Source: Bdellovibrionales bacterium
Lineage (GTDB): Bacteria; Bdellovibrionota; Bdellovibrionia; Bdellovibrionales; Bdellovibrionaceae
Length of the DNA: 64,000 nt
Direction: 5' to 3'
Assembly (NCBI GenBank): GCA_018266295.1
Contig: JAFEAQ010000019.1
Location: 248,001 to 312,000 of the forward strand
The notes beneath the pieces were generated by a model. That model worked only from the letters and a program-made list of their open reading frames with translations. It was not told where the DNA came from and searched no databases. A program made the position numbers and the translations under genes. How positions within the stretch are numbered: the first letter of the stretch is position 1; each line of letters begins with the position of its first letter. Shown here piece by piece: positions 11,130 through 28,902 of this stretch.

Positions 11130-14100
11130 GTGGCACGTACGATCTTGCACAAAGTAATCTCCTTATCTTCAACTAAAACCAGTCTCGCATTCATGGCAGC
11201 AGCGACCATTGGCGGTGGCGCATTTATGGTTTATCAGGCCAAATATGCAACGCCTGTGGACTCCAAAGTTTTGGCGTCAAACTCACCTGAGAATGCGTTA
11301 AGACATCAGCCGATCCTCAAGCCGGAAGATGCTAAATTTATTCAAGGCTTAATGCCGACGCTTCAGTCGCAAGCGGCGCATGATCCAAATGCGATGTTGC
11401 TGGCGAAGGTGATGGAGTTCGGCGAAAAATATCGTACAGCTCAGAATGCGACAGATGCGAATGCGAAAACTCTCGCGGTCGCGACGGTTCGGTCTACATC
11501 AGCAAGTCTTAAGGCGGCCATAGATGCGATTTCTCGCCAACCTAAATTAGCTAAAGCTGTCAAACCTGAATTGCTCGATCTTGCTAAGCAAGCAGTAACG
11601 CTGGCTTCAAATATTTCAAGTTCAGAAAAGATGGCCGTATTACCGGCTATACTTGATTTTAAAGTTGTGCCAGGACTTGAGGGATCGAAAAAAGATGAGT
11701 GGCATGGAAGTTCGTATAGTTACGGAGGAGGAAAGTTTCGCGGAAAAGCGCTGTTTAACCCTCCACCAGTTGTTCCTGCAGCTGCTCAGGCTGCGGCTAT
11801 AGCGACAGTAACTTGTACACCTGTAAACCTTGTTGATCCATCGCCAACAGGTGAAGCGTTGACGGGAAGCGACCTCTATACTGAGCGAAGTACCGAGGTC
11901 ATGGCAGCAGCACAACAACTCAGCTCGCCAGAGGCCGTGTTTGCGTTTGTCCGTGATCAAATTCAATTTATCCCGCATTTTGGTGCGACACAAACTGCGA
12001 CCCAGGTTATTCAATCTGGAACCGGTTCGTCTGCTGATAAAGCGACGCTTCTGATTGCTTTGTTACGCGCTAAAAATATTCCGGCCCACTATGTGATGGG
12101 TGAAGTCTTCCTTAATAGCCATGATACCAACAGTGTGTTTCATGTTGTTGGTGATAAGCCAATTTACTGGGCGTTTCATGAGCTTCTGGCTGAGTATTTC
12201 CAAGACTCCAATGGCAACTTTGATTTAAATCGCATCGCTCACAGCGAAAATGGACAAAACATTTATCACTTGCCGCAAGTGTGGGTGCGCGCCTACATCG
12301 ACGGCAAATGGTTGCAATTGGATCCAATGTCTTTGCCACATGATTTAAGCCTTGGCAAAATCACTCAGATTCCGATTGGTGATTCGACTAACGAATGGCT
12401 TTTCTTACCGGATGCCAACGGACTCTATGTTAAAAACTATAGTTTAACTGATGAGCTTATGCGCCGTGGAAATAGTGCTGTCCGTGGTGTGCTTGGCGCA
12501 AATGCGAGCCTTTCAGATATCGGTATTATCGATAACGGTGCGATGATTGTGCCGGCTTCTAGTAAGCTGCTACAAAACCTACCCGGAGTCCGCCAGCCTT
12601 GCATTTATGAGCAAGCAAACAGTATTCCAAATAGCTATCAGTACTTTTCAGAACTTCGTTTGGGTCATGAGGGCGATACCACTTACTCTTTATTAAGAGT
12701 AAAAATGCCTTCACCAAAAATTCGTGATCTGCCATTGGCTATTTCACATACGACAGGTGTCATTGGCCAAAGTAGCAGTCAGGCTGATGGCAATCTGCAA
12801 ATTCGCCTCGGCGATCAGATCCTTGCGTCAACACCGATGGCTTTCAAAGATGCCTATGATTACATTCACTATTTCCGTGACCCAGAGAAATACTATAAGT
12901 CTGTAGATTTCCGCAAATGGCAAGGACGTGCAGGTCAAGTGCAAGTCATAAATCGCTTTATGTCGCCTGTGAACCAAGCCGAAATCAACCGCGAAGTTCA
13001 GCGCATTCAAGCTTTAAGAGCAAATCCAGCAACAAGACGCCAAGAAATCATGACGGGTCTTTTGCGTTTGGCTGCTCAGATGAATATGCTACGTAACGGT
13101 GAATCTGAACGGGACATGCACCGCCTTCGAGCAACAGGCGGCACAGGTATGTATGCGTTTACGGCATCTAGTGCTGTTTCCCGTGTCATTGCTGCTGGCG
13201 ATCGTGCTCTTGGCGTGATTCCATCAGGAGTGTATATCGACGAGTCAGGGCAATTCCGCGATTATCCTGCCGCCGGTGACTATGCTAGCCTTGCTAATTA
13301 CCAAAACTTTATGCAGGCACGTAATGATCTTGCATTAACAGCTTCTGGAGTTGAGGCCGAGGTTTGGGAAGAACTTTACGGCGTGCCTTCAATGTCTGCA
13401 ATCCGCGTTTTACAAAAAGCCTCTGAGATCAACGCGCAGACACCGGGTTCATATAAATTTATTAAAAATGTGCCACTGACGACGGCCAATCGTCCAAGCA
13501 TCATCGCACAACTTGGCCCAGGCATGCTTGAGCAGGTAGATTTCTTAGATAGCTACATCAACACGAATAAGAGGATGTACAGTTTAACGGATTCACTCAC
13601 TTTGCCTTCGGGTTGGGTGGGTGTTGCCATTGTGCTTGCAACGGATACACCAAGTGACTATCACCATGTCTTTATCACTCAGTACACCCAAGCAGCTGCA
13701 GGCTCAGACTTGCCAGCGCCTTTGCCATCAGATCAACAAAACCTTGATCTATTGGCGCCAGATCAAACTTTGGCTGCGGCAAATACAGCAGTGGTGTCAG
13801 CCGGCACCTCTAGTGAAGGATCAACCTCTGGTGGTTCGTCAATTGTTACAGCCGGAGGCGGATCAAATGCTGCATCTCCAACTTTAGCATCAGATGCACC
13901 GGCAGGTGATGGGCAGGGTTCTCCATCTGACAATACTGGGGCCACTTGTCCGAGTCCCGTTGACGTGGGCACAGGGGCTATGTGGCATCAATTGACTGAC
14001 TTTAAACTGATGGGTCGTACACCTGAAACGAATATCGTTTATCAACGCACCTACCTTGCGCGCCCATTTGTGGCAAGCAAAGTGCTTGGTCCAAACTGGC

Positions 14101-17100
14101 ATGACAACTGGCGAACACACATGTACCTCGCAAACCCGGCGAAGTATCCAGCTGGAAGCGTCTTCTGGCTTGATGAAAACGGGGGTTCGTGGATTTATCA
14201 AAAAAGTTCTAACGGAAGCTTTACTCTTCCTCCGGGACAGTTTGCGACTTTGAGTGAATTTAGTGACCGCTACGAACTTCGCAAAAAAGGCGGCGTCGTA
14301 CTTACGTTCTCTCGCTCGAATGCGGCTCCTTTTGGTAGTCTCACGCAAATTACCGATCCTCATGGCGAAAAAATTGTTCTCAGCTATGGCTCCAATCAAT
14401 TGCTCTCGCGCATCTATAACTCATTTACTGGTGGAGTGAGCTTTACTTACGATGCGCAAAACCGTGTAATTCAGATTCTCCGTGAACGTGAGAACTTCGT
14501 CTATACTTACACTTACGGGGCTGATGGTAAGCTTTCGAAATCAACTGACTTTACCGGAAGAAGTTACACCTATGAGTACAATCAAGGCCAAGTAGGTACT
14601 TTGGCCAACGGTCTTATGTCAGTATTGACGGACCCCCTCGGAAGAAAAATTAATTTCTCATACTATGATAATGGTAAAGTCTTTGAGCAGGTCGAGCCGG
14701 GGAATGCCCATCGCAGTTATTTCTACTCGCCATTCCTAGGTGATATTAATACCCGCGTTCTTGATACCGATGGTGAGTCGACGGACTACCGTTTTGACAG
14801 TAATTTCCGTCTCACTGAGATTATGGCGGCTGACGGTGGACGAATTGCGCAAGTTTGGGATAACTCCAATCAGCTTGCACAAAAAATCGATGAGCTCGGC
14901 TATGTGACACAGATGCAGTACGATGCACGTGGAAACATGATCAGTCTCCAACGTCCGAATGATCTCCAGCCAACGACGATGACGTACGATGCGACTTTTG
15001 ATAAGCTGCAGTCTATTGCGCCGCTTGCGGGCTCTCCGCTCAATTACACGATTGATTCGGCTAAGGGCGATGTGCTTAAGATTCAACGTTCGGATGGCAG
15101 CAAGCTTTTAAGCCTCTCGATGGCCTACGATAAATTTGGCCATGCTATTCAATTTACGAATGATCGCGGCAGCTTTGCTAACCAGACTGATGCCGATGGT
15201 TTGCTGACAAGAGTTTTCGACTCCCGTAATCCTGAAACACGCACTTACGATTCACGCCACCGCTTGGTTCGTCGTAAGTTCAGCTCAGGCCGCGTACTGT
15301 CTATTCAGTACGATAATTTGGATCGCGTGACCCGCGTTGACGACTCCGCAGGTCCAAGCGTCATCAATGTTTACGATGCTGGTGATCGCCTCGTATCAAG
15401 AACAGTGACTGATGGTGTGACTTCACAAATCACAAAATATACCTGGGACGATCGCGATCGTATTAGCTCTGTGACAGATTCCCTGGGACGCATTACTAAG
15501 TATGGTTATGGCTTTGCCAACCTTGGCTGTCGTCAGAATGATAGACCAACATCAATCACAGATCCTATGGGACGTGTGACAACCCTTGAATACGATTCTC
15601 GCAATAGACTTGTAAGAAAGGTGTCTGCGATTGGTGCCGTCACACGATATGAATACAATATGCGTGGCGATCTGATTGCATTGACAGACGCTGTCGGCAA
15701 CCGCACGACTTACACACGCGACGGCAACGGCCGTGTCGTTCAGAGCTTAGAGCCTGTGACGATCACCAACAGTGATGGTTCGTCAACGTCGACATTAAAA
15801 GAAATCAAGTATCAGTACGATGCCGCGGGCAGAGTCGTGCGTGAATCCTCGGGCTTGCAGGGTTCAGCGGCGGTATTAAGCGTGCGTGAATTCAAATATG
15901 ACGTTATGGGACGCTTGATTTCCCGTGTAATGAAGAAGGAAAAGAATGGCACCGTACTTGAAGTGCAAGATAGTTCAAACTTTGCTTATCAAAGTCAGCT
16001 TTTACCAGAGCAGTTAAAATCCGCTTATAACGGGGTTGCGCTGAATGAGTTTAACAATGAGGCTCTGCCTCCTTATAGCCTCGTAGCGTTCTCGCAAAAA
16101 GCTGCTCAAGCGGGTAATCCTCTTAGTTTGATCGAGGGTGAATATGCTATCTCGGCGGCACAGAGTGCTGATATCGCATCCATTGCTCAAAAAGGTAAAA
16201 ATCCGTTTGTTGTCGCTGATTACGACAGCGCGGGACGTATGCAGCATATGCGCGGAGTTCTCAGTGGCAATGATTTAGAGTTTGCATTGAGCTATGATTC
16301 TTACGGCCGCAAGTCAGCTGTTTATGCTGATGACCGCCTGGTTACTAAATTTAGCTATGACATTGCCAATCAGTTAACAAGCCTTGCTTACCGCGACAAC
16401 GCGGCAGAGTTAAATGAATCATTGGCCTATAATCTCAACGGAAATATCACTGAACGCCGTCATAACTCAGGCAGTTTGACTTATGCGTATGATGAAGCAG
16501 ACCGTTTGATTTCAGCAAACGGACTCCGCGGCGGGATTAGTCAGGCTTTGCAATACGATCTTAACGGCAACCACACCTTTGACTCTTTCACAGGCCAAGG
16601 ACAGTTCGCTACGAACCAAATATTGGCGGATCAACTGCACTCATTTGCTTCGGATGCGGAGGGTAGTGGTAATTTGGTTGCGGAGACTGACGTGAATAGA
16701 ACTTATCAGGACAGATTCACTTACCGGGTCGATGGCAAGTTGTCGGGTTTCGAACGAGTTCTTGGCGCGACTCCGAACGATGATGACTTTGACGACAATC
16801 ATCGTCACTCGGATTTCTGTAATCATGATCACGACAACGTCAACCGTATCCGCGGTCAGTCTGCGCAGTACTTCTTTGATGCTTTGGGAAGACGGGTGGC
16901 TAAGAAGATTCAGATCAAAGCTAAGGGTAAAGTAGCCTCTAGTTTCATCCAGAGCTATTTGTATCTGGGTAATCGTGAGCAGATCTTAATGGCGAAGGCT
17001 GGAGATGGTGATTTATCGCTGTACCTAGATCGTCAAGGTGCCGATGCTGGCATGGATGAGCACCTTGGAGAGGTAAGCTCTAATAGTAGTAAAGCATATC

Positions 17101-17831
17101 AAGCCGATCATCAAGGTTCCGTATTGAATTCAACCGCAGCTGCTGGTGCTCGAGCTTATACGCCATTTGGAGCAAGTTTCTCAGTTGTTAATTCGATAAA
17201 CCGTCACTCAGAACCAGTGGTGTACGGATATACCGGTCGCGAGTACGATATTGAATCTGGAAAGTACTATTATCGTGCTCGTCAGTATGATCCTTTGGCT
17301 GGGAGATTCTTAAGTAAAGATCCGATTGGCTTTGAAGGTGGCGATTCGAATTTATATGGGTATGTTTCAAACGATCCAATAAATTTCATTGATCCGCAAG
17401 GATTAAACAAAGATGATATTAATTCTGCAATTAAGATTGTTCAGACTGCTATGGGAAGTAAATTAAAAGGGGTAAAATTTGTGACTGGCGAGTTGGAGCC
17501 TGGTACTCTTGGCGAATATGATCCGGTGACAAAAACAATCACAATTTCTGAAGTTTTCGATATGAATAGTGGTTCGTTATCGAATTCAAGTGCGGAAGCG
17601 CTACTTCAAGTTGTATTTCATGAGGCGTTGCACACGGGACAAAGCTATTCGGACTCTACTCTTCAGCTTTATCAAGACGTATTAGCAACTATAAAAGCCG
17701 GTGAGTATGACACTGGTGCTATTCACAAAGGGCTAGACAATCAAGCTTTAGATTATGCGAAAAAATACATGGATTTTTACAATCAGCTCAGGAAATCTCC
17801 TGGTTGCCCATCACCCGGTTCAATGAAGTGA
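11130..17831 (+). CDS. Giant RHS/YD-repeat protein with HExxH C-terminal tip
   Basis: A 2233-residue protein with a GTG start preceded by AGAGGA. Order: N-terminal membrane anchor (about 18-38); helical region; a transglutaminase-like domain (about 255-400) in which the usual Cys and His positions read Ser (GSSADKATLL) and Gln (QVWVRAYIDG), so it is probably inactive; S/G-rich linker (about 905-938); DUF6531-like start of the RHS cage (PVDVGTGAM, about 940); some 20 YD repeats; a D/H-rich insertion (about 1882-1906); and the RHS core ending DPIGFEGG...NLYGYVSNDP...DPQGL (about 2033-2092). The last 141 residues are unlike the rest and contain HEALH (2164-2168), an HExxH zinc-protease motif. 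This is polymorphic-toxin architecture, with the tip as effector. Its DNA turns AT-rich after DPQGL. Confidence 0.9.
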   Translation: MARTILHKVISLSSTKTSLAFMAAATIGGGAFMVYQAKYATPVDSKVLASNSPENALRHQPILKPEDAKFIQGLMPTLQSQAAHDPNAMLLAKVMEFGEKYRTAQNATDANAKTLAVATVRSTSASLKAAIDAISRQPKLAKAVKPELLDLAKQAVTLASNISSSEKMAVLPAILDFKVVPGLEGSKKDEWHGSSYSYGGGKFRGKALFNPPPVVPAAAQAAAIATVTCTPVNLVDPSPTGEALTGSDLYTERSTEVMAAAQQLSSPEAVFAFVRDQIQFIPHFGATQTATQVIQSGTGSSADKATLLIALLRAKNIPAHYVMGEVFLNSHDTNSVFHVVGDKPIYWAFHELLAEYFQDSNGNFDLNRIAHSENGQNIYHLPQVWVRAYIDGKWLQLDPMSLPHDLSLGKITQIPIGDSTNEWLFLPDANGLYVKNYSLTDELMRRGNSAVRGVLGANASLSDIGIIDNGAMIVPASSKLLQNLPGVRQPCIYEQANSIPNSYQYFSELRLGHEGDTTYSLLRVKMPSPKIRDLPLAISHTTGVIGQSSSQADGNLQIRLGDQILASTPMAFKDAYDYIHYFRDPEKYYKSVDFRKWQGRAGQVQVINRFMSPVNQAEINREVQRIQALRANPATRRQEIMTGLLRLAAQMNMLRNGESERDMHRLRATGGTGMYAFTASSAVSRVIAAGDRALGVIPSGVYIDESGQFRDYPAAGDYASLANYQNFMQARNDLALTASGVEAEVWEELYGVPSMSAIRVLQKASEINAQTPGSYKFIKNVPLTTANRPSIIAQLGPGMLEQVDFLDSYINTNKRMYSLTDSLTLPSGWVGVAIVLATDTPSDYHHVFITQYTQAAAGSDLPAPLPSDQQNLDLLAPDQTLAAANTAVVSAGTSSEGSTSGGSSIVTAGGGSNAASPTLASDAPAGDGQGSPSDNTGATCPSPVDVGTGAMWHQLTDFKLMGRTPETNIVYQRTYLARPFVASKVLGPNWHDNWRTHMYLANPAKYPAGSVFWLDENGGSWIYQKSSNGSFTLPPGQFATLSEFSDRYELRKKGGVVLTFSRSNAAPFGSLTQITDPHGEKIVLSYGSNQLLSRIYNSFTGGVSFTYDAQNRVIQILRERENFVYTYTYGADGKLSKSTDFTGRSYTYEYNQGQVGTLANGLMSVLTDPLGRKINFSYYDNGKVFEQVEPGNAHRSYFYSPFLGDINTRVLDTDGESTDYRFDSNFRLTEIMAADGGRIAQVWDNSNQLAQKIDELGYVTQMQYDARGNMISLQRPNDLQPTTMTYDATFDKLQSIAPLAGSPLNYTIDSAKGDVLKIQRSDGSKLLSLSMAYDKFGHAIQFTNDRGSFANQTDADGLLTRVFDSRNPETRTYDSRHRLVRRKFSSGRVLSIQYDNLDRVTRVDDSAGPSVINVYDAGDRLVSRTVTDGVTSQITKYTWDDRDRISSVTDSLGRITKYGYGFANLGCRQNDRPTSITDPMGRVTTLEYDSRNRLVRKVSAIGAVTRYEYNMRGDLIALTDAVGNRTTYTRDGNGRVVQSLEPVTITNSDGSSTSTLKEIKYQYDAAGRVVRESSGLQGSAAVLSVREFKYDVMGRLISRVMKKEKNGTVLEVQDSSNFAYQSQLLPEQLKSAYNGVALNEFNNEALPPYSLVAFSQKAAQAGNPLSLIEGEYAISAAQSADIASIAQKGKNPFVVADYDSAGRMQHMRGVLSGNDLEFALSYDSYGRKSAVYADDRLVTKFSYDIANQLTSLAYRDNAAELNESLAYNLNGNITERRHNSGSLTYAYDEADRLISANGLRGGISQALQYDLNGNHTFDSFTGQGQFATNQILADQLHSFASDAEGSGNLVAETDVNRTYQDRFTYRVDGKLSGFERVLGATPNDDDFDDNHRHSDFCNHDHDNVNRIRGQSAQYFFDALGRRVAKKIQIKAKGKVASSFIQSYLYLGNREQILMAKAGDGDLSLYLDRQGADAGMDEHLGEVSSNSSKAYQADHQGSVLNSTAAAGARAYTPFGASFSVVNSINRHSEPVVYGYTGREYDIESGKYYYRARQYDPLAGRFLSKDPIGFEGGDSNLYGYVSNDPINFIDPQGLNKDDINSAIKIVQTAMGSKLKGVKFVTGELEPGTLGEYDPVTKTITISEVFDMNSGSLSNSSAEALLQVVFHEALHTGQSYSDSTLQLYQDVLATIKAGEYDTGAIHKGLDNQALDYAKKYMDFYNQLRKSPGCPSPGSMK

Positions 17832-22793: not shown

Positions 22794-23606
22794 ATGGAAT
22801 ATAGGCATAAAATAAATAGTTTGTCCCAATACCTAGAGATAATTTCAAAAGCTGGTAAATTCGCGACCAAATCGCCACTGTGGTTTCGCGGCCAAAGATC
22901 AGATAAACTCGGTTTGGTACCTGGAATCTATCGAAGGTCCAATAAGCATCTTAAACGCGATGAAAAGTCTCCAATTATCGAATTTTTTCAGCTGTCAAAT
23001 AACTTCCTTGAGCGAGAGAACTTGGATGGCTGGGATTGGCTAGCATTAATGCAGCACTATGGCTTGCCAACGAGGCTCTTGGATTGGACTGAAAGCAGCT
23101 TAGTTGCGCTCTACTTCGCCCTAAAGGACGGTGAGAGTCCGCAAGATTTTCCTACGATATGGATTATTGATCCGTATGCTTTAAACCTTAAATCAATTGA
23201 CGATGACAATATCCAGCTTGCTTGGGGTTCTAGATTATTTCCTTGGCTTCCTGAAAGTCTAAGAATTGAAGGAGCTGTTAAGCATCTGATAGAGAAAAAG
23301 CCTTCGTTCAATGAAGCTGGGAAGTATCCAATTGCTACATATGTTAGGTATACAAATCCAAGAATAATTGCTCAAAGTGGTGCGTTTACACTACATGGTC
23401 ATTATGAAGATTGCCTTGAAAAGTACTTTGAATCCAAATCTATTAAATATAGAAAAATAGTTCTAGAGCCGGTCAGAAGTAGTTCGCTGAAATGGCTGAG
23501 AGCTAAATTGCTTTTCGAATTAGAAAATGTTGGTGTTCATCAACTGTCATTGTTTCCAGAGCTATCATCTGTTGCTTCTTTTATTATAAATAGACGTACT
23601 CCTTAA
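22794..23606 (+). CDS. FRG domain protein
   Basis: A 270-residue protein with an FRG domain over the N-terminal half: LWFRGQRSDKLGLVPGIYR (about 29-47) and LMQHYGLPTRLLDW (about 85-98), then ALYFAL. FRG proteins occur widely in phage-defence neighbourhoods, but their activity is not settled. No signal peptide or TM helix is visible. It overlaps nothing and is followed after 10 nt by a DUF4365 gene with its own AGAGG site, so the two form one operon. It lies in AT-rich DNA between repeat R3 and the MerR-polymerase gene. Confidence 0.88.
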   Translation: MEYRHKINSLSQYLEIISKAGKFATKSPLWFRGQRSDKLGLVPGIYRRSNKHLKRDEKSPIIEFFQLSNNFLERENLDGWDWLALMQHYGLPTRLLDWTESSLVALYFALKDGESPQDFPTIWIIDPYALNLKSIDDDNIQLAWGSRLFPWLPESLRIEGAVKHLIEKKPSFNEAGKYPIATYVRYTNPRIIAQSGAFTLHGHYEDCLEKYFESKSIKYRKIVLEPVRSSSLKWLRAKLLFELENVGVHQLSLFPELSSVASFIINRRTP

Positions 23607-23616
23607 GAGGTTTGAA

Positions 23617-24618
23617 ATGTATTATCCGAAGAAATCACATATTGGAGCAAAAGGCGAAGCGCATTTAAAATCGACAATTTTCAATGATATTGGTTGGATT
23701 TATCGTCCCCAGCCTGAATCTGACATTGGAATTGATGGCGAAATTGAAATACTAGATGAAAAAAATCATAGTAAAGCGGTATTAGCTAAGGTGCAGGTAA
23801 AGACTTCGGAGGAAATTAAAAACTTAGATAATATAAAGGTGCCAGTAGACGAACCTCATTTGGTGTATTGGAGTCGATTCAGAATTCCTGTTCTTTTGGT
23901 TGCCGTTGACCTTAAAACAAAAACTTCATATTGGACTTTGATTGATTCTACAATTTCTGTCCCACCTGGCCAAGAGACATTCTCGGTTCATATACCTAAA
24001 GAAAATATTATCAATGTTCATAGAAAAGAATTTCTATCTGAGACACTGGCAATTCCGAGAGGAGTTTTCGATGGCCTTATTGAGTTAGTTGAGTTTGAGG
24101 CCGAAAATTTATTAGATGTCTCATGTTACGCGGATGATAAAGAATTTGATGACGCAAATTCAAAAGTTTGGAAGATGGTTCAAAATATTTTCCAATTGGC
24201 TGAAAATTTTGAGGGAGTCCTGTCGTTTCAGCATCGAAAGAGAATTTTGATGGGGGCTAAGAAGGTTTTTGAAAATCATATGAAAGACTTGAGTGAGCGC
24301 CTGAATAACCTATCGCATGACACTGTCGTAGGAAATGTGCGAGTAAATACGACCATGAAATTAAATTATGGTGGCAATAATTTTGATGGTGTTGACTATT
24401 ATGATTTTAATGACCCATCCATTTTGAACTCTGAGGATTGGATTATTGAAGTGACTGGCAGCGTTTGTATGGGACACAACAATAGCGGTAAGGCGATTTG
24501 GAGAGATATAGCTGATTTTACCGAAAGGGGTTGGTGGTCAAGTAAAGACCCGCTAGATGCTATTGGTAAGGCCAAGAATGAACTAGTAGAAGTTATTAAT
24601 GATTTTCCGAGAGAGTAA
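23617..24618 (+). CDS. DUF4365 (PD-(D/E)xK nuclease-like) protein
   Basis: A 333-residue protein. The N-terminal ~150 residues match DUF4365: IGAKGEAHLKS, GWIYRPQPESDIGIDGEIEI and VLAKVQVKTS. The D...E...QxK arrangement is the active-site pattern of restriction-endonuclease-like folds. The C-terminal half (about 170-333) is helical then beta-rich, without a recognised motif. It is the second gene of a pair with the FRG protein (10-nt gap). A DNA- or RNA-cleaving effector is the natural inference. The pair ends at the GGGCTCCTC hairpin (24630). Confidence 0.85.
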   Translation: MYYPKKSHIGAKGEAHLKSTIFNDIGWIYRPQPESDIGIDGEIEILDEKNHSKAVLAKVQVKTSEEIKNLDNIKVPVDEPHLVYWSRFRIPVLLVAVDLKTKTSYWTLIDSTISVPPGQETFSVHIPKENIINVHRKEFLSETLAIPRGVFDGLIELVEFEAENLLDVSCYADDKEFDDANSKVWKMVQNIFQLAENFEGVLSFQHRKRILMGAKKVFENHMKDLSERLNNLSHDTVVGNVRVNTTMKLNYGGNNFDGVDYYDFNDPSILNSEDWIIEVTGSVCMGHNNSGKAIWRDIADFTERGWWSSKDPLDAIGKAKNELVEVINDFPRE

Positions 24619-24658: not shown

Positions 24659-26212
24659 TTAGAAATACAAAGCCAACGGTCTAAAATCTTTATCGATAAA
24701 TCCGAGATCCGACCAAGCGGAGTGGTGATTGTCTTCCCAGTCCTTTAAAGCCGCGCGGTATTCCTTCGGATAAAGCGAATTCATCACAGCACTGCGCTTG
24801 ATAAACCACCACATGCAGACCATATGGCTCTTCAGGAACACGGATTTAGCTTCAGTGTCTAGTAATTCTCGAATTTCTGCAGGAACATGTTTTTCATATT
24901 CTTCCGCTCGTGGGAATTCTTTCAATCGGCCATTTTTAAAAGAGTAGAACTGATTGCATTCTGAAACTGACCAGTCCAAGTAGACTTGTAAGATACGGAT
25001 AAAGTCTTCGCGGTACATCAGAAGACCCTTTGTCTTCGCCAAGATCTTTTGAATCTGCACAGGCAGCTTCTTAGCGCTTGGAACGAGCTTTTCGTGGTTT
25101 ACATACTCTTCCAACATCGCGATCTTATTCCCGATGGGATAGGCAAGTGTGCAGAGGTTTAAAATGTCTTCTGCATCTTTGACCTTGTATGTTTCTAGCT
25201 GCTTCCAGATCGCGCGTTTTACTTCGTTCTCTTTTTGCCAGAATTCCAATGCAGAGTTTGCATGCATGATGGATTTTTCCGGAGCATCAAATAAGAAGAT
25301 CTGTTCCACTTGGCCTTTGACGAAGCTTGAAAGGACGCGCGTGTCGTGATCAGGGATTGCATCGTAGTTAATAGGCCCCACTTGTTTTTCAACTTGGGCC
25401 ATCACGCTCAGGAAGGGGCATTGGAAAATAAAGATCTTTGCTTCACGCAGTTCTTCGAGCGTTGTTCTCTTTAGCAGGTGGTTTAAAAACTCAGGGCCCT
25501 CATCGTAGGCCACATCGACCCAGATGAGTGGCTTCACGGCATGGAAAAAGAGTTCCGGCAGCAGATCAAACTGCTGGGAGTAATTGTGATTAAAACCTTT
25601 TGAATAAAGCAGCAAGCTACCGGCTGCGGGACCGCGGCCTGGGCCGATCGTGGTGCCCATTTCGTCGGCGACGTCTTTGATGATATCGAGCAGCTCCATC
25701 ATTTTTGTGAAGTGGGTGCTTTCGGCGGCCTTGAGTTCGTGGCGCAGGTTGCGTTCAAGGTCTCCCGAGACGGCGACGCCGCGGGCTTTTATCTTTTGCT
25801 TTGCTTGGGTGACAAGCTCTTCCATGATGATCCTCCTTTGTGGCTCACTGAGTTTGTGAGCAGTGTTTAAGGAGGCAATGAGGGCTTCGAGCTTTTGAAT
25901 CCGCGCCGCCGCCTGCACGTGATCGGCTTTGAGCGCTTTCAATTTCTTCTTCAAGGAATTCTGAAGATTCTCTGTGGTGAGAGTGGGGTCCTGCGCCAAC
26001 AGCTCAGCGATTTCGCCGAGGGTGAATCCAAAGTCTTTGAAGTTTTTAATTCTCTCGGCTTGGGTCACTTCGGACTTCGAGTAAAAGCGGTAATCATTAT
26101 CGCCTCTAGAATGCGATTTGAGTAAGCCCTTAGCTTCATAAAAGCGAATAGCCCGCGCGGTGAGCCCGGTCTTCTTAGCCAGTTGTCCGATAGTAATCCA
26201 GTCCTTCATCAT
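24659..26212 (-). CDS. MerR-family regulator fused to a DNA polymerase III alpha-like core
   Basis: A 517-residue protein. The second ATG (26209) is better spaced from GGAGG than the first. Residues 5-75 are a MerR helix-turn-helix (ITIGQLAKKTGLTARAIRFYEAKGL) and about 80-125 a dimerisation coiled coil. Residues about 155-490 match the C-family polymerase alpha subunit (DnaE): GPGRGPAAGSL (190-200), FDLL (215-218), a palm strand WVDVAYDE (231-238), VLSSFVKGQVEQIFLFD (293-309), LAYPIG (357-361), LLMYREDFIRILQ (397-409) and KSHMVCMWW (461-469). Compared with DnaE, D233 and D309 match two catalytic aspartates, but the third is Ala235, and the PHP, OB and clamp-binding regions are absent. It is probably a DNA-binding regulator with a repurposed polymerase core sensing nucleotide or DNA. 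Related 3' ends form repeats R1-R3. Confidence 0.85.
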   Translation of the reverse strand: MMKDWITIGQLAKKTGLTARAIRFYEAKGLLKSHSRGDNDYRFYSKSEVTQAERIKNFKDFGFTLGEIAELLAQDPTLTTENLQNSLKKKLKALKADHVQAAARIQKLEALIASLNTAHKLSEPQRRIIMEELVTQAKQKIKARGVAVSGDLERNLRHELKAAESTHFTKMMELLDIIKDVADEMGTTIGPGRGPAAGSLLLYSKGFNHNYSQQFDLLPELFFHAVKPLIWVDVAYDEGPEFLNHLLKRTTLEELREAKIFIFQCPFLSVMAQVEKQVGPINYDAIPDHDTRVLSSFVKGQVEQIFLFDAPEKSIMHANSALEFWQKENEVKRAIWKQLETYKVKDAEDILNLCTLAYPIGNKIAMLEEYVNHEKLVPSAKKLPVQIQKILAKTKGLLMYREDFIRILQVYLDWSVSECNQFYSFKNGRLKEFPRAEEYEKHVPAEIRELLDTEAKSVFLKSHMVCMWWFIKRSAVMNSLYPKEYRAALKDWEDNHHSAWSDLGFIDKDFRPLALYF

Positions 26213-26235
26213 TGCCTCCGAGTTAAGACTGGGGG

Positions 26236-26256
26236 TTGACGTAGAGTCAAGGTCAA
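26236..26256 (-). promoter_or_regulatory. Candidate MerR-type operator/promoter
   Basis: On the minus strand, a TTGACC (-35-like) hexamer is followed by the dyad TTGAC-TCTAC-GTCAA, 24-45 nt upstream of the MerR-polymerase start. MerR regulators typically bind such dyads inside an elongated -35/-10 spacer, so autoregulation is likely. The -10 element is not obvious. Confidence 0.55.
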
Positions 26257-26331: not shown

Positions 26332-27483
26332 CTAATCTGATATTGCGTATACACTATTGGACAATTCTCCCAATGTTAGGAGGGCCATGCGATCTTCAAT
26401 GTTGTTTAGAAACGATTTAATTAATACTGAAAACTCGCTGGACGATTCTATTTCTAAAATCCACTTATCAGGAAAATACCGAGCTAAGTTTCCAATTATG
26501 TACAAGCTTACATATATAGTACCAAATTCATTTAGGCAAAATGGCGGAAGAAATCCGACTTCACTTACCGACTTTTGAAAACATTCTGGGACCGACAATT
26601 GTGGAGAGACTCCTTTGCCACCATTGATAGTTACCACGAAGCCCCCCGCAGGAGATTCGCTTATATCTACTTGCTTCCATGCCCAAGGTTCGATTTTGAA
26701 ATGATCAAACACTTCCCACAATAGTGCTGTAGTTGTTGGATGCGTGATAAACTTTAAGCGCGAATTGAAGTTATCATTTGGGAGAACGCTAGTTTCCTGG
26801 ATTACAACTCCACGTACAACCTTTCCACTAATGTTGTACGTTGATAATTCTCTTTGCAGCCATGGTAAATGGGTAAAGCATTCTAGTAAAGTTAGGCCTT
26901 GTAATGGGAAGTCAGAAATATTGGAGCCGGTTAGGAGCACTTCAGTACTCTTATTGGAGACATTAGTATCATGATATTGTGTAGTATGCAGACCTATCAG
27001 AGAAGCGTATTGAGCAGTGCGTCTCCAAAGTTCAAAGGTACCCATTCTAGCACCGTCTTTAATCATGGGTTTTGCTCTAATACTTGAAAACTTCTCTTCG
27101 ACTGTTAGCTGTTTTTGTATATTTTCGGAAAATAGTAGTCCGTGATGTCTGTGACTTTCTCGCGCGACATCTAGGCTACTGGTGCCATCCTGTTTCACCA
27201 ATATCTCAGCGAGTGCTAGGCACATGCATGAGTAGTAGAGCAATAATGGCTTGGTAGCCAAGCTGACTGTTTTTGATGCATCTCTATATTCTTTGGCTTG
27301 TTGAATGCAATACCGGATTTGTTCAGCTTGCTTTTGAACGTTTCCTTTTTGATTCTTGGGGACTGAGTGCCATTTCATTAGAAGGTTTGTAACATATGGT
27401 ACACTTCGATAAGTTTCGAGCCAATCCCAAGCATTATGACTCTCGCGATCTGAAATTATTCTACCTGTTTTATATGATTGCAT
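26332..27483 (-). CDS. YaaC-like protein
   Basis: A 383-residue soluble protein that looks like the YaaC family: an early W-x-x-L segment, a helix with QQAKEYRDA, then KPLLLYYSCMCLALAEI (about 80-97) and a nearby HHGLLF, ending in a conserved region on residency in small communities (IYVSLYIIGNLARYFP, FLNNIEDRMA). YaaC proteins are uncharacterised and often found beside other genes in defence-like contexts. The ATG follows directly on the stop of the upstream coiled-coil membrane gene (TAGATG), so the two are translationally coupled. Confidence 0.72.
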   Translation of the reverse strand: MQSYKTGRIISDRESHNAWDWLETYRSVPYVTNLLMKWHSVPKNQKGNVQKQAEQIRYCIQQAKEYRDASKTVSLATKPLLLYYSCMCLALAEILVKQDGTSSLDVARESHRHHGLLFSENIQKQLTVEEKFSSIRAKPMIKDGARMGTFELWRRTAQYASLIGLHTTQYHDTNVSNKSTEVLLTGSNISDFPLQGLTLLECFTHLPWLQRELSTYNISGKVVRGVVIQETSVLPNDNFNSRLKFITHPTTTALLWEVFDHFKIEPWAWKQVDISESPAGGFVVTINGGKGVSPQLSVPECFQKSVSEVGFLPPFCLNEFGTIYVSLYIIGNLARYFPDKWILEIESSSEFSVLIKSFLNNIEDRMALLTLGELSNSVYAISD

Positions 27484-28902
27484 CTAGTTGATGGTCTCTT
27501 CGGCTGATTGCGAGGATTTTTTGCTTATTGTTGTTACACTACTAATTATATCTTTAATACCAAATTTTTCTGGCAATACTGGGGCGACTTTGTCTAAGGT
27601 GTTTGCATCTATCTCTAGGTCATAAGATAGCGATTCAAAGGACATATTCATAAAATGGTTCTTTAAAACTACAAATGAGAGAAAAGAAGCGTAATTTCTT
27701 TTCTCAGAGTCAGGCTCGCCTTTGAGCACCGTTTCAGCGGTATTTCTGGCAAGAATTAATTTTGCCTCAATATTCCTGGTGTCGGTTACTAAGTTTAGCG
27801 TATTTTTGACAGTATTTTTTATAAGTTCGAACAGCCAGTAAAATGCGGTTAAAAATATAGCCCCTGCCCCAAGTCGTAGCGCTGTGATTGTATACAGTTG
27901 ATGAGGTTCTGTAGTATTTTGTATTTGCTCAAGTGCATGCTCATAATACGTCATAGCACCTTGACATAGTACTTTTGCGAGGCCAATTAGGAGAAGTGAA
28001 AGTGCTAAATTAATTGCAAAATTTTTCCGAGTTTCACTTTTAAATCCTTCAAGTGTCGAGTTATAGAAATTTTTTTTATTTAAGATGTTGTCTAGGTCAA
28101 TTTGAGCTCTATATTTCTCGTCTTGTTTTGTTGCAATTTCTGACTTTAAATTATTAATATTATTGTCTAGTGCCTGATATTCTCCTCTTAAGCTATTTAA
28201 GTTTGTATTAAGAGATTCATTTTTCTTCATCAGCTCTTCAAGATTAGATTCTAATTCTTGTTTTTTGCTCGATAAATCTTCATTAATTTTATGCAGGCGC
28301 CCCTCTTCGGTCTTTAATCCGGAAATATTATTTTCCAGATTCACGCCTGAATTTGTGAGCACTAGTGCTTGGGACAAGTTCTTTCTGAATGCTTGTATAG
28401 AAGTCGACAGGTTTTGAAAATAGTTTGAAAGTTTATCTTGAAAGTCAGAAGGGTCAAAGTTTAGGTCGCCATGTATTTCAATCTCGCTAATGATCTCAGC
28501 TAAAGGTTTAGTCGTGTTGATTTCGATTGCGACAACTACCCCATTAACGACTATCTCTTTTTGTTCCTTAAACGGATTTATAGTTTTAAATTCTGAATTT
28601 CTTTTGCTTGGATCGCAGCCGTAATAAATTATTTGTACTCGGCGGGTTCCGAGAGCGCCTTTGTTATGGAGGTTAATGGTGTGAATATATGCCGGCCTCT
28701 TGAATTCTAGTCGTAAACTTTTCTTCTGTGTAACTAGTTGCAAGGGGCCGTCTAAGATTTTACTTTCTTGATTTGCAGATGATTGTTCGTTTAGTGAATT
28801 ACTTTTGATTCTTTCAAATGCATAAAATGGAAGGTCTGATTCTACTGTCGGTATTTGAGTCTCAATTTTTTTGAATTCAGCCTCTAAGTTTTGAAAACTC
28901 AT
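27484..28902 (-). CDS. Coiled-coil membrane protein, partner of the YaaC-like gene
   Basis: A 472-residue protein with AAGGAA before its ATG. Order: an N-terminal beta-rich domain (about 40-150), perhaps a carbohydrate- or ligand-binding sandwich; a long coiled coil (about 185-285, heptad-like runs of Leu/Asn/Lys/Glu); two TM helices (about 298-320 and 346-366); and a helical cytoplasmic tail with LDKVAPVLPEKFG. No family is recognised. This layout (sensor, long coiled coil, membrane segment) and tight coupling to a YaaC-like gene suggest a two-component unit, possibly defensive. The DNA is AT-rich, which suggests transfer. Confidence 0.7.
   Translation of the reverse strand: MSFQNLEAEFKKIETQIPTVESDLPFYAFERIKSNSLNEQSSANQESKILDGPLQLVTQKKSLRLEFKRPAYIHTINLHNKGALGTRRVQIIYYGCDPSKRNSEFKTINPFKEQKEIVVNGVVVAIEINTTKPLAEIISEIEIHGDLNFDPSDFQDKLSNYFQNLSTSIQAFRKNLSQALVLTNSGVNLENNISGLKTEEGRLHKINEDLSSKKQELESNLEELMKKNESLNTNLNSLRGEYQALDNNINNLKSEIATKQDEKYRAQIDLDNILNKKNFYNSTLEGFKSETRKNFAINLALSLLLIGLAKVLCQGAMTYYEHALEQIQNTTEPHQLYTITALRLGAGAIFLTAFYWLFELIKNTVKNTLNLVTDTRNIEAKLILARNTAETVLKGEPDSEKRNYASFLSFVVLKNHFMNMSFESLSYDLEIDANTLDKVAPVLPEKFGIKDIISSVTTISKKSSQSAEETIN

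Follow-up and report, generated by a model that had tools for sequence, protein, structure and literature searches.

A MerR regulator fused to a probably inactive DnaE core in Bdellovibrionales may act as a self-inducing ligand trap

The window, a stretch of 64,000 nucleotides from contig JAFEAQ010000019.1 of a Bdellovibrionales bacterium, carries on its reverse strand an open reading frame of 517 amino acids (24659-26212) that joins a MerR domain to a DnaE palm and fingers core. Pfam matches the N-terminal part to MerR_1 above the cut-off (64.5 bits, residues 7-74) and the remainder to DNA_pol3_alpha (28.6 bits against a cut-off of 23.9, residues 133-223) and DNA_pol3_finger (33.9 bits against 22, residues 279-421). 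The winged helix-turn-helix occupies residues 6-75 (25988-26197, reverse strand, like all other features of this gene), as placed by Pfam and by the CueR, CadR and MerR structures. It is followed in the AlphaFold2 model by a long helix, residues 80-116 (25865-25975), predicted to form the dimerisation coil; Taken together, Pfam, the model and structure matches support both elements. In a profile-profile comparison with hhalign, the polymerase part matches DnaE with Prob 99.9 and E = 6.6e-35. The initial annotation had described a MerR helix-turn-helix fused to a DnaE-like core, and the Pfam and hhalign matches bear this out. As the same 4.2-Mb genome already encodes full-length DnaE twice (in open frames of 1180 and of 1130 amino acids), the fusion is an extra, third DnaE homologue. 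On one side lie an FRG-domain gene and then a DUF4365 gene (22794-24618, forward strand), both matching candidate defence models (PDC-S15 and a prokaryotic-Argonaute-associated nuclease type) in a scan that covered the window alone. On the other lies a YaaC-like gene and, ahead of it, one for a coiled-coil protein that probably has membrane stretches (26332-28902, reverse strand). Further away, an RHS-repeat protein of at least 1276 amino acids is found at 14001-17831 on the forward strand, the scanned stretch starting at 14001.

The AlphaFold2 model of the fusion has a pLDDT of 78.7 and superposes on E. coli PolIII alpha (2hnh) with a Z of 29.5 over 351 residues at 3.5 A, residues 123-499 of the model lying on residues 284-796 of the chain. 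The likeness of the predicted fold to DnaE is far above chance. Homology to DnaE spans residues 131 (E. coli 290) to 489 (E. coli 786), and in the alignment about E. coli 436-568 is missing, save a few residues; this stretch we take to include the thumb region. The protein has no PHP domain, no thumb region and no OB/C-terminal part. The absence of PHP and OB domains agrees with the initial annotation, and the internal stretch that it had also listed as lost can now be placed at about E. coli 436-568. A TipAS effector domain (PF07739) found no match at E<=1. The MerR part resembles CueR, CadR and MerR structures, its best-scoring relative being CueR (64.9 bits); residues 1-129 of the window protein contain no Cys, and the metal-binding Cys pair of the CueR type is not found there.

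The polymerase core retains several conserved positions. In the GPGRGPAAGSL palm loop, residues 190-200 (25613-25645, placed by alignment), G190, R193 and G194 are invariant, R193 being the equivalent of E. coli R362. Within the fingers segment, residues 391-475 (24788-25042, placed by Pfam and alignment), E402, D403 and H463 are invariant. H463 corresponds to E. coli H760 and, judged by motif, should be the equivalent of His787 of Mtb DnaE1, a residue in contact with the inhibitor nargenicin (PMC8922275). The window protein keeps this His but neither of the two other positions that contact nargenicin (by motif E. coli Q610 and R639).

The catalytic residues have fared differently from what was claimed at the outset, namely that D233 and D309 align with catalytic aspartates, that the third is Ala235 and that one catalytic Asp is lost. 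The palm strand D233-V-A235 (25508-25516, placed by alignment) has an invariant Asp and Val (D233 in 20/20 homologues). Residue 231 is W or H across homologues, and residue 235 is Glu in 18 of the 20, Gln in one and Ala solely in the window protein. Both hhalign and MAFFT place D233 on D405 of the PDFDVDF motif (D401/D403/D405); sequence does not fix this register, and helix spacing would suit D403. D309 falls in the alignment on E. coli E612, in the FQLE motif, rather than on D555, and is thereby ruled out as the third catalytic Asp. The strand matching the DnaE D555 strand, residues 260-266 (IFIFQCP, 25415-25435, from model and alignment), shows no conserved acidic residue in the aligned homologues; at position 264, 19 homologues have K or R and the window protein has Gln. 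At positions 235, 264 and 269, where nearly all homologues carry Glu, Lys/Arg and Asp, respectively, the window protein alone has Ala, Gln and Ser. The full set of three catalytic aspartates (E. coli D401, D403 and D555) is absent: judged from the alignments, the window protein is left with no more than one of these carboxylates, whatever the register, so that at least two are gone. The match to PolIII alpha structures proposed as a check was obtained, without the aspartates that had been expected of it. With its catalytic residues missing, the DnaE-derived core is very probably inactive as a polymerase, as the initial annotation had supposed, and since the defining residues are absent the fusion would not count as a C-family polymerase in function.

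The MerR-pseudo-DnaE fusion defines a genuine family. Full-length relatives at about 30% identity were returned by a protein search of 66 genomes from the family that includes the window's host, and a profile search of the phylum found the fusion in 22/369 genomes of four families (f1, f7, f12 and f20), with one copy cut off at a contig edge and another broken by a stop. An interrupted copy (L083, 7236-8813, forward strand) has an in-frame TAG, its 3' part remaining open for 313 amino acids. In close pairs, dN/dS is 0.06-0.12 for the polymerase part and 0.06-0.15 for the MerR part, indicating purifying selection on the family. The polymerase parts form a single clade (100/100), apart from both DnaE1 and DnaE2; it is long-branched, the branch of the window protein being the longest of the family, and the tree does not settle descent from DnaE1 versus DnaE2. 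Beyond the phylum, searches of genome contigs, IMG/VR, plasmids and phages returned MerR-only matches, and a fold search of viral proteins returned DnaE-like phage polymerases and separate MerR proteins, but no fusion. The initial annotation knew of no described family of this kind; within the open-licence literature, no description of a MerR domain fused to a polymerase was found, nor one of MerR fused to DnaB, and MerR is not mentioned in two surveys of bacterial PolIII alpha or polymerase families (PMC3919608, PMC12926913).

Each of the 20 genes examined is preceded, at 15-38 bp from the long start, by a MerR-type promoter with a TT(G/T)A-like -35 box, a spacer of exactly 19 bp that contains a dyad, and a -10 box. 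For one gene (L082; TTGAAA, 19 bp, TATGAT) the promoter was identified by eye from the upstream sequence, and for two others (L079 and L081) it is the second candidate of the script. The promoter in the window reads TTGACC TTGACTCTACGTCAACCCC CAGTCT (26226-26256): a -35 box TTGACC (26251-26256), a 19-bp spacer holding the operator dyad TTGACTCTACGTCAA (26232-26250), and a -10 box CAGTCT (26226-26231), which is TATGGT-like in relatives. By its domain and its promoter sequence, the fusion belongs to the MerR family.

The operator was searched for in nine genomes with up to 3 mismatches, a threshold at which weaker regulon sites may escape. In the window genome, the gene's own promoter is the sole site with 0-2 mismatches, and three further sites with 3 mismatches are near the chance level given by a backward control. 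The own promoter is the best site in 8/9 genomes (7/8 besides the window's); in the ninth (G156) it ties with one other 3-mismatch site. A 2-mismatch site in another genome (G007) is the promoter of a MerR-Lon paralogue, and all remaining matches have 3 mismatches and occur in roughly the number of the backward control. The operator of clade A has a single site within 3 mismatches, the own promoter, in 6/8 genomes, and no site within that limit in the other two. No strong second operator was found at up to 3 mismatches in the genomes searched, and conserved neighbours that could serve as target genes are not shared between clades. Given such variable neighbours, the likely output is the fusion protein itself. 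The operator predicts that the fusion most likely controls its own gene; an operator at the own promoter, a mark of the TipA class, is thus present at the level of sequence.

A second translation start appears to lie within the gene. The codons of Arg125-Arg126 form a Shine-Dalgarno sequence, AGGAGG (25832-25837), followed by an ATG at Met130 (25823-25825), and nowhere else in the gene is an anti-SD match stronger than in AAAGGAGG-ATCATC-ATG (0/1512 better). The predicted product is a short isoform of 388 amino acids (24659-25825), the free pseudo-polymerase core, and its start falls directly before the onset of DnaE homology at residue 131. The Arg126 codon is AGG in 20/20 genes, in contrast to the other invariant or nearly invariant arginines (R23 0/20, R36 1/19, R42 1/20, R193 0/20) and to a background of about 8% among Arg codons of these genes; a binomial figure for the AGG excess is indicative only, the sequences being related. 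At codon 130, 19 of the 20 homologues have ATG and one has GTG, as does the stop-interrupted copy, so that, read from the codons, a start codon is kept although the amino acid changes. In clade A the AGG Shine-Dalgarno sequence is present, yet it is not the strongest anti-SD window of the gene. The gene most likely yields two proteins, the long form and the predicted short form, and a second in-frame start giving a free effector, again as in the TipA class, can be read from the nucleotides.

DnaE is not the only enzyme found on this MerR chassis. A MerR-Mur family (15 sequences aligned) has a weak Pfam match and a predicted fold that resembles Mur ligases and cyanophycin synthetase (Z 17-20, about 19 for the Mur fold); MerR-DnaB_C occurs in 3 genomes (110-127 bits), and a MerR-Lon N-domain fusion in 1 (86 bits). 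A like promoter lies upstream of the Mur, DnaB and Lon fusion genes, the three MerR-DnaB promoters having been identified by eye. In MerR-Mur, a strong internal Shine-Dalgarno sequence precedes a Met at the junction and is the best window of the gene in 8/15; it is moderate in MerR-DnaB and poor in MerR-Lon. A tree of the MerR domains does not resolve a single origin for each of the polymerase, Mur and Lon fusions. The MerR-Mur loci include L128 (1547-2533), L019 (1453-2502) and L074 (1501-2502), all on the forward strand, among others; they carry the central domain of a Mur ligase, its P-loop degenerate (VTGxxGLEKTA), and in six genomes lie 11.5-13 kb from the contig start, perhaps near the origin. 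The MerR-DnaB genes (L166, 302-1447, reverse; L167, 269-1396, reverse; L168, 567-1688, forward) encode the DnaB C-terminal domain with an intact Walker A and have the 19-bp MerR promoter upstream. The Lon fusion (L124, 1553-2638, forward) carries the N-terminal, substrate-binding domain of the protease.

The combination of one strong operator, placed at the gene's own promoter, with a second start matches the layout of TipA, and therefore a one-gene self-inducing ligand trap is proposed that follows the logic of TipA and AlbA, with the dead DnaE core as the binder, a reading to which we give about an even chance. A dimer of the long form would occupy the 19-bp-spacer promoter that immediately precedes the gene encoding it. 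Upon binding of a ligand to the pseudo-polymerase core, the MerR part would remodel the promoter and turn the gene on, and the transcript, translated from two starts, would yield more sensor and much free core (388 amino acids), the latter soaking up the ligand. As the binder copies the palm and fingers of DnaE with catalysis dead, the most likely ligand would be one that attaches to DnaE around its active site and fingers. The candidate is an inhibitor of the replicative polymerase, either a small molecule or a phage protein, and less likely a nucleotide; a DnaE inhibitor would fit best, given that every captured domain belongs to a central enzyme and that one of them, the Lon N-domain, does not bind nucleotides. 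The fusion, its fold, the catalytic loss, the purifying selection, the promoter directed at the gene itself, the lack of a strong second operator within 3 mismatches and the conserved second start with its Shine-Dalgarno sequence have their basis in sequence and structure prediction. We infer that the protein would bind DNA and a ligand, that the short form is made and sequesters this ligand, and what the ligand might be.

TipA has been described as a minimal autoregulated multidrug resistance system, in which two alternative starts are used and the short form sequesters the drug (PMC7762955), and AlbA has been proposed to work likewise (PMC6078987). The TipA class (TipAL/TipAS; SkgA) and AlbA (AlbAL/AlbAS) share with the fusion a MerR domain and a C-terminal binder, and they target their own promoter and use two starts to make a long regulator and a short binder, as the fusion does by sequence. 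The binder of the fusions, in contrast, is not a TipAS domain but a dead DnaE core (or Mur, DnaB or Lon-N), so that the fusion, lacking the TipAS domain, is not a TipA protein but appears to work like one. CueR, ZntR and CadR have the MerR domain and the type of 19-bp-spacer promoter in common with it, whereas their metal loop is replaced by a domain of about 390 amino acids. BmrR, Mta and EcmrR also combine MerR with a C-terminal ligand domain, which is GyrI-like or of another type rather than a DnaE core; these regulators mostly act on separate genes. The DnaE-type PolIII alpha proteins share the palm/fingers fold, the GRG loop and the YxE and KSH-like motifs, but the fusion differs from them in having no PHP, thumb or OB part and at most one catalytic carboxylate, and in forming a separate clade.

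The initial annotation had suggested a regulator sensing nucleotides or DNA, and the dead core could indeed bind a dNTP, a related nucleotide or a primer end and report the replication state through MerR, the own promoter being simply the strongest site. The DnaE fold binds nucleotides, and the GRG loop (R193 and G194 invariant), E402 and H463 of the fingers, the invariant D233 and the mostly Glu residue 235 are consistent with this. However, the thumb region is absent, Glu235 and Lys/Arg264 are not retained in the window protein, and a free short isoform would merely buffer nucleotides. Generic nucleotide sensing is further disfavored because the Lon N-domain, which does not bind nucleotides, was captured in parallel on the same chassis, and the lack of a strong second operator within 3 mismatches also speaks against it. 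The notion is possible but not favored, and we regard it as unlikely; the promoter and the internal start point instead to a system of the TipA type.

The same layout could also serve a protein ligand: a dead DnaE, DnaB, Mur or Lon domain would mimic its target and trap an inhibitor protein from a phage or a competitor, with MerR inducing more of the decoy. The captured domains do come from diverse central enzymes, the gene contexts vary, and the neighbours in the window match candidate defence models, but no inhibitor protein is linked to the gene and the defence link comes from the scan of the window; a protein decoy is held to be rather improbable. MerR regulators commonly have separate targets, and the fusion might accordingly be an ordinary activator of other genes whose operators have diverged, its internal Shine-Dalgarno sequence and start being a by-product of a conserved amino-acid motif. 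Such a by-product is difficult to reconcile with an Arg126 codon that is AGG throughout, against about 8% for other Arg codons, or with a Met130 that changes to Val only as GTG, and no strong second operator was found at up to 3 mismatches; this explanation appears very unlikely.

Taken beyond DnaE, the self-inducing trap could represent a general class of one-gene target decoys, built on a MerR chassis that repeatedly captures enzyme domains and protecting the real enzymes from inhibitors, a generalization that we offer tentatively and hold to be somewhat less probable than not. It is read from dead or partial DnaE, DnaB, Mur ligase and Lon N-domains, each of which would be made as a long sensor and, in most of the families, also as a short decoy on its own. 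If true, a copy of the target with dead catalysis under a self-controlled two-start promoter would be a new route to sensors and resistance genes, and the decoys would be ready-made reporters for finding inhibitors of DnaE, DnaB, Mur ligases and Lon. A DNA_pol3_alpha match in a gene need not mean a polymerase. A possible further variant of the chassis is seen in two MerR genes (L163, 367-1035, reverse; L164, 445-1086, forward) that carry an uncharacterised tail of about 90 amino acids with no Met at the junction.
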